A stretch of 64,000 bases of DNA from Streptacidiphilus jiangxiensis (lineage in GTDB: Bacteria; Actinomycetota; Actinomycetes; Streptomycetales; Streptomycetaceae). Below the pieces are notes generated by a model. The model ran no database searches. It saw only the letters and a list, made by a program, of their open reading frames with translations, and had not been told where the DNA came from. The position numbers and the translations under genes are program-made. The stretch spans positions 62,001 to 126,000 of the forward strand of contig NZ_FOAZ01000012.1 in assembly GCF_900109465.1 (NCBI RefSeq). Direction: 5' to 3'. Below are positions 47,524 through 51,776 of the stretch, piece after piece (position 1 is the first letter of the stretch; every line of letters begins with the position of its first letter).

Positions 47524-47988
47524 TCAGTAACGGCGTTCCTGCTTCTGCTTGCACTCCACGCACAGCGTGGCGCGTGGGAAGGCCTGCACCCTCGCCTTGC
47601 CGATCGCCTTGCCGCAGGACTCGCAGAACCCGAACTGGGACCCGGCGATCCGCAGCAGCGCGCGCTCGGTCTGGGCGAGCATGTCGCGGGCGTTGGCCGC
47701 GAGGGAGAGCTCGTGCTCCCGCGAGATGTTCTTGGTGCCGGCATCGACCTGGTCGTCGCCCGCGCCGTCGCCGGAGTCGCGCATCAGACCGCTGACGGCC
47801 TCCTCGGCCGTCTGGATCTCGGCCCGCAGGTCCGCCGCCTCGGCCGTGAGCTCGGCCTGCAGCTCCATGACCTCCTCCGCGGTCCACGGCTCCTCGCCAG
47901 GGCGGACCGGGAGCGAGGCCGGGTCCAACCGCGCGCCGGTGGCCTGGTGGGTCGTCCGGGTGGCCGCGGTGGTCTTGTTTCGCGTCAC
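47524..47988 (-). CDS. TraR/DksA-type zinc-finger protein
   Basis: 154 residues from a GTG at 47988 with GGGGGAGAG upstream; an ATG at 48066 would add 26 residues. A coiled-coil part ([20 protein letters not shown], about 45-110) leads to a four-Cys zinc finger, [14 protein letters not shown] then CVECK. DksA-type proteins bind RNA polymerase's secondary channel with ppGpp. Whether this acidic-tip version does so is unknown. Confidence 0.88.
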
Positions 47989-48066
47989 GATGCTCTCCCC
48001 CGGGTCTCCCACGGACACTCCGGCACGGCGTGTCCCGCCAGCTCGGCTCCTTGCCTTGTCCGCCAT

Positions 48067-48370
48067 TCCCTCGACCCCTTCGTGCATGACTGACCGGCAC
48101 TCTGTCGGTGCCGGAACGATAAGCCGTGGCGAATGCCACCACAACGGGACATACCGGAGTACGTCCTTCCTCTCGCCTGGCTGCACCAGTGCGGTTGCCC
48201 GGGCCGCGTGGTCCTGCAGCATGTAGGACGAGTGGACGAAGGAAGTTGTGCCCAGAACGTGACGCGATAATCGCCCGGTGTGTCCGTTACCGGCGCGTCA
48301 CCTCACGAGGGGCGCGCGCGGTAGTGCAGGAAATCACCTTGCCGCGCCCTATAGACTGCTTGGCAGCAAG
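48067..48370. other. Non-coding gap before the ileS leader
   Basis: No reading frame here has a ribosome binding site or recognisable product. A TAGACT at 48352-48357 is a good -10 hexamer for the T-box transcript, which would begin near 48364; no clear -35 is seen. Confidence 0.5.
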
Positions 48371-48632
48371 GCGTGGATGGGGACGAGTACCGCCGCACGC
48401 AGCCGATAGAGACCCGGGGACGGTGGAAGCCCGGGGGTGTGCGCAGCGGGAAGATCACCCCGGAGCCGCCGGAGGAAAGGCGCAGGTCACCCGCGCCGAG
48501 TAGAACCGGCCGCTGACCCCAATGAGGGGGTCGTGCCGCTACGGCGCGACCAAGGAGGGTGGTACCGCGGGGCGCTCGTCCGCCTCGTCCCTCCGTCGGA
48601 GACAGCAGTAGAGCCGTTCCGCCGGAGGAAGC
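48371..48632 (+). promoter_or_regulatory. T-box leader (tRNA-Ile) controlling ileS
   Basis: The conserved T-box AGGGTGGTACCGCG is at 48556-48569. Upstream lies a full Stem I: GGACGAGTA (48381-48389; GA motif and specifier-loop 5' side), AGAGA bulge (48408-48412), apical GGTGGAA (48422-48428; GNUGNRA motif) and a candidate Ile specifier ATC at 48454-48456. No U-run terminator is seen. CCCTCC (48589-48594) can pair with GGAGGG (48554-48559) or, shifted by a base, with CGGAGG of the ileS ribosome binding site (48623-48628), so control is probably translational. Confidence 0.9.

Positions 48633-51776
<3,144 letters not shown>

Follow-up and report, generated by a model that had tools for sequence, protein, structure and literature searches.

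Which kind of switch, if any, controls ileS in Streptacidiphilus jiangxiensis is the question raised by the DNA immediately upstream of this gene. In the window analyzed here (the whole stretch of 64,000 nucleotides), an earlier note had recognized ahead of ileS all the main parts of a T-box with an Ile ATC specifier, together with two mutually exclusive pairings over the ribosome binding site. Our follow-up analysis indicates that this leader is very probably a T-box riboswitch of the translational type that combines a long Stem I with a Stem II and senses tRNA-Ile(GAU). Judged by sequence comparison, it is best read as a conserved, unexceptional representative of an established switch type, common to nearly all the close relatives examined. 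The features on which the argument draws are the following.

48371..48466, + strand: segment holding the distal Stem I elements and the specifier (cmscan alignment and pairs; most helices present in the RNAalifold consensus of 60 leaders)
48408..48429, + strand: distal Stem I elements, AGAGA at 48408-48412 and GGTGGAAG at 48422-48429 (cmscan alignment; motif in 60/60 family leaders)
48454..48456, + strand: specifier codon ATC (Ile), invariant in 60/60 family leaders
48469..48509, + strand: Stem II (sequence; consensus columns 112-116/189-193 and 123-126/177-180, several changed on both sides)
48529..48551, + strand: Stem III (sequence; covarying consensus helix, columns 214-221/263-270)
48554..48594, + strand: anti-sequestrator, with helix A1 (48554-48559/48589-48594), a bulge from TGGT 48560-48563 and helix A2 from 48567/48588 (covariation)
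48590..48628, + strand: sequestrator hairpin, CCTCCG 48590-48595 with CGGAGG 48623-48628, then 48597-48600/48618-48621 (minimum free energy fold of the isolated 3' region; 60 leaders)
48624..48628, + strand: ileS Shine-Dalgarno GGAGG, 4 nt 5' of the ATG (sequence)
48633..51776, + strand: ileS, isoleucyl-tRNA synthetase (IleRS), 1047 aa (ORF; TIGR00392)

In the cmscan alignment, 46 nt separate the start of the distal module from the ATC specifier, which sits in an internal loop. GGTGGAAG at 48422-48429 is presumably the elbow-binding IDTM, and we tentatively take the two halves of Stem II, GGAGGAA and GAGTAGAA, to be S-turn-like. IDTM is the name given to the elbow-binding element of distal Stem I in a published account (PMC7583486). 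Further downstream, helix A1 joins GGAGGG (48554-48559) to CCCTCC (48589-48594), and the arm shared by both alternative pairings is 48590-48594; the positions previously assigned to GGAGGG, CCCTCC, CCTCCG and CGGAGG, as well as the ileS start at 48633, all proved correct. Upstream of the leader lies a divergent ORF of 232 aa (47524-48222, minus strand), with a putative C4 zinc-finger-like C-terminus that would resemble those of DksA/TraR proteins.

The T-box model RF00230 aligned over its full length (model 1-219) at 48365-48595, with 57.8 bits and an E-value of 5.2e-12 for 601 bases searched (1.9e-11 in a search of the whole genome, in which the ileS leader is the better of two matches). A default Rfam scan of the window listed nothing, the gathering score of 93 lying above the 57.8 bits of the leader. 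In the family of the window (f1), all 61 genomes have RF00230 matches at E<=0.1 and none exceeds the gathering cut-off; the low score hence goes with the lineage and gives no sign of decay here. Among 14 named control genomes, 6 (including an archaeon) also passed the E<=0.1 threshold, which is therefore loose, so that the position before ileS is decisive. In practice, the default Rfam threshold will miss the ileS T-box in family f1, where 60 genomes have one and 0/61 reach the cut-off.

The ORF 3' of the leader is indeed an IleRS (TIGR00392, 906.6 bits for a cut-off of 621.4), the start of which is 98% identical to that of Streptacidiphilus pinicola over 300 residues; the next-best named IleRS matches are from Streptomyces and, lower, from Actinacidiphila and Embleya. 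The specifier ATC at 48454-48456 matches this gene. Moreover, a pattern search found in the genome a tRNA-Ile gene with anticodon gat, and the 3' end of the examined tRNA-Ile(gat) gene reads ...GGCCCACCA, i.e., ACCA, complementary to the TGGT bulge as a TGGN bulge should be to an NCCA tRNA end. Each T-box feature that sequence can address, tRNA binding aside, was thus found, and the claim that all the main parts and an Ile specifier are present is borne out by the full-length RF00230 match and the IleRS downstream.

In the mechanism that we propose, the anticodon of tRNA-Ile(GAU) would pair with the ATC specifier while distal Stem I and Stem II hold the tRNA. An uncharged tRNA would pair through its ACCA end with the TGGT bulge and stabilize the anti-sequestrator (GGAGGG:CCCTCC and A2), which would leave the ileS Shine-Dalgarno free and allow IleRS to be made. 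With charged tRNA the anti-sequestrator would not be stabilized, and the same CCTCC arm would pair with the Shine-Dalgarno and shut translation off. That uncharged tRNA-Ile favors GGAGGG:CCCTCC and frees the Shine-Dalgarno, as the earlier note proposed, is supported by the comparative tests below and matches the published translational mechanism.

Covariation of the two alternative pairings was examined in an alignment of 60 ileS leaders, one per genome, from 60 of the 61 family f1 genomes; in the genome left out (G022), no ileS match adjoins the match retrieved (L017). The specifier and the T-box core are invariant in all 60 leaders, which is more than chance would produce. In the anti-sequestrator, 98.5% of the cells are paired, compared with 56-62% for slid structures, and 79 cells are changed on both sides as against 29.1 in shuffles, a value reached in 0 of 500 shuffles. 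Helix A1 is 100% paired in 60/60 leaders; one of its pairs alone changes on both sides, with 14 changes that are partly common by descent. In the sequestrator, 95.3% of the cells are paired (31-64% when slid) and 13 are changed on both sides (3.6 in shuffles, 0/500 as high). Two sequestrator pairs are changed on both sides; 396 of 500 shuffles do as well by this measure and by the count of pair types. Beyond its first five pairs, the sequestrator has five that are broken in 7, 3, 8, 1 and 9 of the 60 leaders. The one column at which the anti-arm, the shared arm and the Shine-Dalgarno arm vary together reads GCG in 42 leaders, ATA in 7, ATG in 7 and GTG in 4, and both pairings survive there in 60/60, through few independent events that kin leaders share. 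Run unprompted on the same 60 leaders, RNAalifold recovered the main T-box stems and did not draw the sequestrator in its consensus; it added pairs foreign to the T-box fold, namely two specifier bases with columns 25-26, and columns 5-7 with columns 195-197. The expected covariation of the arms is accordingly present, and comparison of the leaders argues strongly for the anti-sequestrator and more weakly for the sequestrator. A sequestrator that covers the Shine-Dalgarno and excludes the anti-sequestrator, as in a translational T-box, was found, covariation being the weaker part of this evidence.

The complementarity of the shared arm to the ribosome site was also compared across the class. 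An IleRS match was present in 143 of the 148 genomes sampled, 11 of them in family f1; outside this family, with three genomes excluded for weak or partial matches, 130 loci in 129 genomes were available. ileS served as anchor for 125 of these loci and not for the other five, and a T-box motif was found in 106 of the 125 and in none of the remaining 19. The class counts leave out the duplicate family loci L080-L090 (L081 being from a family genome outside the 60), IleRS matches that are weak or incomplete (G064, G124 and G139), and a second piece of G073. Together with the 60 family leaders, the 106 make a set of 166. The shared arm binds its own 3' region more strongly than those of other families in 139/166 leaders and, for family means, in 26 of 30 (Wilcoxon p 3.9e-5, these means being partly non-independent and duplex energies crude); a Shine-Dalgarno-like motif lies within the best duplex in 139/166. 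When the swapped regions were of like GC content and length, a control that could be run for 152 of the 166 leaders, 20 of 28 families kept the advantage (p 3.8e-4); it is reversed in 4/30 families in the first comparison and missing in 8/28 with matched swaps. The A1 pairs are complete (6/6) in 154 of the 166 leaders and number 5/6 in 12, a circular count in that the shared arm was chosen for its pairing with the anti-arm, and one therefore set aside as evidence. Conservation of the T-box on the one hand and of the Shine-Dalgarno on the other makes the core CCTCC:GGAGG pairing expected anyway, and the swap test tackles this expectation solely through the flanking pairs.

This last point bears on the main alternative, namely that the leader controls transcription through an intrinsic or Rho-dependent terminator and that its pairing with the Shine-Dalgarno is incidental. 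A long Stem I with a Stem II is the mark of Class I, which according to one paper generally acts on transcription (PMC10482949), and the match of CCTCC to GGAGG follows from two conserved motifs. A simple consensus scan of 48150-48700 for terminator-like hairpins of the intrinsic type with a T run (Rho-dependent sites being outside its scope) found 0, with 0.2 expected, and between T-box and start codon a run of at least five T's occurs in just 4 of the 166 leaders, while the shared arm and its own ribosome site outdo cross-family swaps in most families. Transcription termination was thus rejected as the mode, there being no terminator-like site in that interval and T runs in so few leaders, and we regard it as highly unlikely; on this count too, the alternative raised beforehand has not materialized. 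The four leaders with such T runs (L142, L147, L152 and L154) all belong to family f25. That the leader is a relic, with its parts retained and ileS constitutive, would fit a score below the Rfam gathering cut-off, but is extremely unlikely, as the low score is a trait of a lineage in which all 61 genomes match and none reaches the cut-off, and the specifier, the T-box core and both pairings at the variable column are kept in 60/60.

A working translational T-box hence remains the preferred reading, and its support is comparative, not energetic. Indeed, single-sequence folding was dropped as evidence: the minimum free energy structure of the whole leader gives neither T-box state cleanly (z -2.09, 4 of 200 shuffles equally stable), and the isolated 3' region is barely more stable than its shuffles (z -0.8 to -1.2). 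In the model of the 3' region, the sequestered state (-41.0 kcal/mol) is better than the anti-sequestrator (-35.4 kcal/mol) by 5.6 kcal/mol, so that OFF is the modeled default without tRNA, as would be expected if tRNA must pay for the opening.

How the leader compares with known T-boxes was assessed against published work. For actinobacterial ileS genes, T-boxes have been described in which hairpins sequester the Shine-Dalgarno (Seliverstov et al., 2005; PMC1262725). The window leader shares with them the ileS target, the T-box sequence, the anti-sequestrator and a Shine-Dalgarno-sequestering hairpin in place of a terminator, and, judged from that text, nothing essential differs. The same two-state translational mechanism appears in PMC7583486, and the translational mechanism in PMC7778990 is consistent with the reading made here. 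Four T-box classes, set by Stem I and Stem II, are distinguished in PMC10482949; the class II model of TBDB, which covers translational T-boxes and was searched for in Actinobacteria, is not the Class II of that scheme (PMC7778990). With the ileS T-boxes of Nocardia farcinica and Mycobacterium tuberculosis, the leader has in common the ileS target, a Stem II with S-turn and a translational output (PMC7583486 and PMC10482949). The N. farcinica element is named there as belonging to Class III, a class with a short Stem I that lacks the elbow-binding module and with the specifier in the apical loop, whereas the specifier of the window leader is in an internal loop; neither the short hairpin Stem I nor the apical-loop specifier of the ultrashort form was found in it. 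With Class I T-boxes such as that of Bacillus subtilis tyrS, it shares a long Stem I with distal module, a Stem II and an internal-loop specifier, and it differs from them in its 3' part, which covers the ribosome site, while Class I T-boxes generally control transcription termination (PMC10482949). By our motif rules, the distal Stem I module and Stem II are present in 60/60 family leaders, that of the window included. We infer from these features a Class I architecture combined with a putative translational output.

The full-length Stem I had been noted beforehand as a contrast to the ultrashort one of some actinobacterial ileS leaders. The contrast is correct, but the feature is not special: a long Stem I was found in 60/60 leaders inside the family and in 55 of the 105 classified outside it, the others being ultrashort (44) or neither (6). 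This classification relies on our own motif rules and on genomes drawn evenly from the class and left unweighted, and one of the 106 T-box leaders, cut by a contig end, is unclassified. While few translational T-boxes are described as having a canonical long Stem I, most being intermediate or ultrashort, in the review PMC7583486, these counts suggest that the long form is common among translational ileS T-boxes. A divergent IleRS group (L191-L219, 29 loci, E weaker than 1e-84) yielded 24 anchored loci with 33-57% identity in the anchoring alignment, and their leaders comprise 0 long, 23 ultrashort and 1 other. Long and ultrashort forms co-occur within each of four families (f11, f14, f19 and f28), which suggests repeated change. 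Under the same rules, 80 named loci, which overlap the class genomes in part and were kept out of the class counts, gave 63 long leaders with Stem II, 1 long without it, 9 ultrashort, 1 other and 6 without T-box motif. In genome G045, an ultrashort-Stem-I leader of ileS type (L078, about 1000-1370) precedes a short broken frame that, by eye, resembles an IleRS start; the ileS locus of the same genome (L065) has the long form.

Among the 55 long leaders outside the family, Stem II is present in 47, partial in motif in 2 and lacking in 6 (L125, L129, L148, L185, L187 and L189); further leaders of this kind are L289, from a named Frankiales MAG, and L312. Stem II is present in all 50 leaders without the long form, a few of which were read by eye, and 0 of the 105 classified leaders lack both modules. 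In the Stem II-less leaders the linkers were read directly; the specifier is ATC, and it lies 57-85 nt from the T-box core. A pattern search of class genomes retrieved such leaders in 5 of 394, and a reversed control pattern retrieved none; these 5 are four of the five genomes holding the six loci plus a new one (L312), and only one of the 5 reaches 90% completeness with contamination no higher than 5%. The link to ileS was made by protein match for all Stem II-less leaders except L312, for which it is sequence resemblance alone. Three genomes of one genus (g27) display three architectures, i.e., long with Stem II (L188), ultrashort with Stem II (L181) and long without Stem II (L187 and L189). 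The latter two are separate ileS loci of G110, both Stem II-less, in an assembly with 7% contamination. Comparing the loss of Stem II in long and in other leaders gives a Fisher value of 0.027 with the two partial-motif leaders left out, a test that ignores kinship and is merely suggestive.

In PMC10482949, a long Stem I without Stem II is called glycine-specific, and no report of Ile-specific leaders lacking Stem II was found in the literature searched, most subscription papers lying outside its reach. The Stem II-less ileS leaders of these relatives are more novel than the window's own element, the window itself holding little that is new beyond a clear and conserved instance of a switch already known. 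It is an evenly balanced proposition that the window leader represents, in its complete form, a modular series in which either the elbow-binding part of Stem I or Stem II has been lost repeatedly, even in one genus, and never both, and which includes Ile-specific translational leaders without Stem II. If this is true, an AU-rich codon would be readable without Stem II when the contact with the tRNA elbow is kept. Natural leaders that miss one of the tRNA-holding modules would moreover be matched RNAs for asking what Stem II does.

Other T-boxes came to light beside the ileS leaders. A second one in the genome of the window (L002, contig C59, reverse strand 1501-1741) has, by eye, a GAC specifier and a TGGC bulge; the first 160 residues of the gene that follows resemble aspartate--tRNA(Asn) ligase, below the model cut-off, and in several relatives genes of similar appearance are preceded by leaders like this one. 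Another T-box, with, by eye, a TCC (Ser) specifier and a TGGC bulge (L008, 1501-1734), comes from a genome of the same genus and stands before a serS-like gene, of which 160 residues were searched and scored below the model cut-off.
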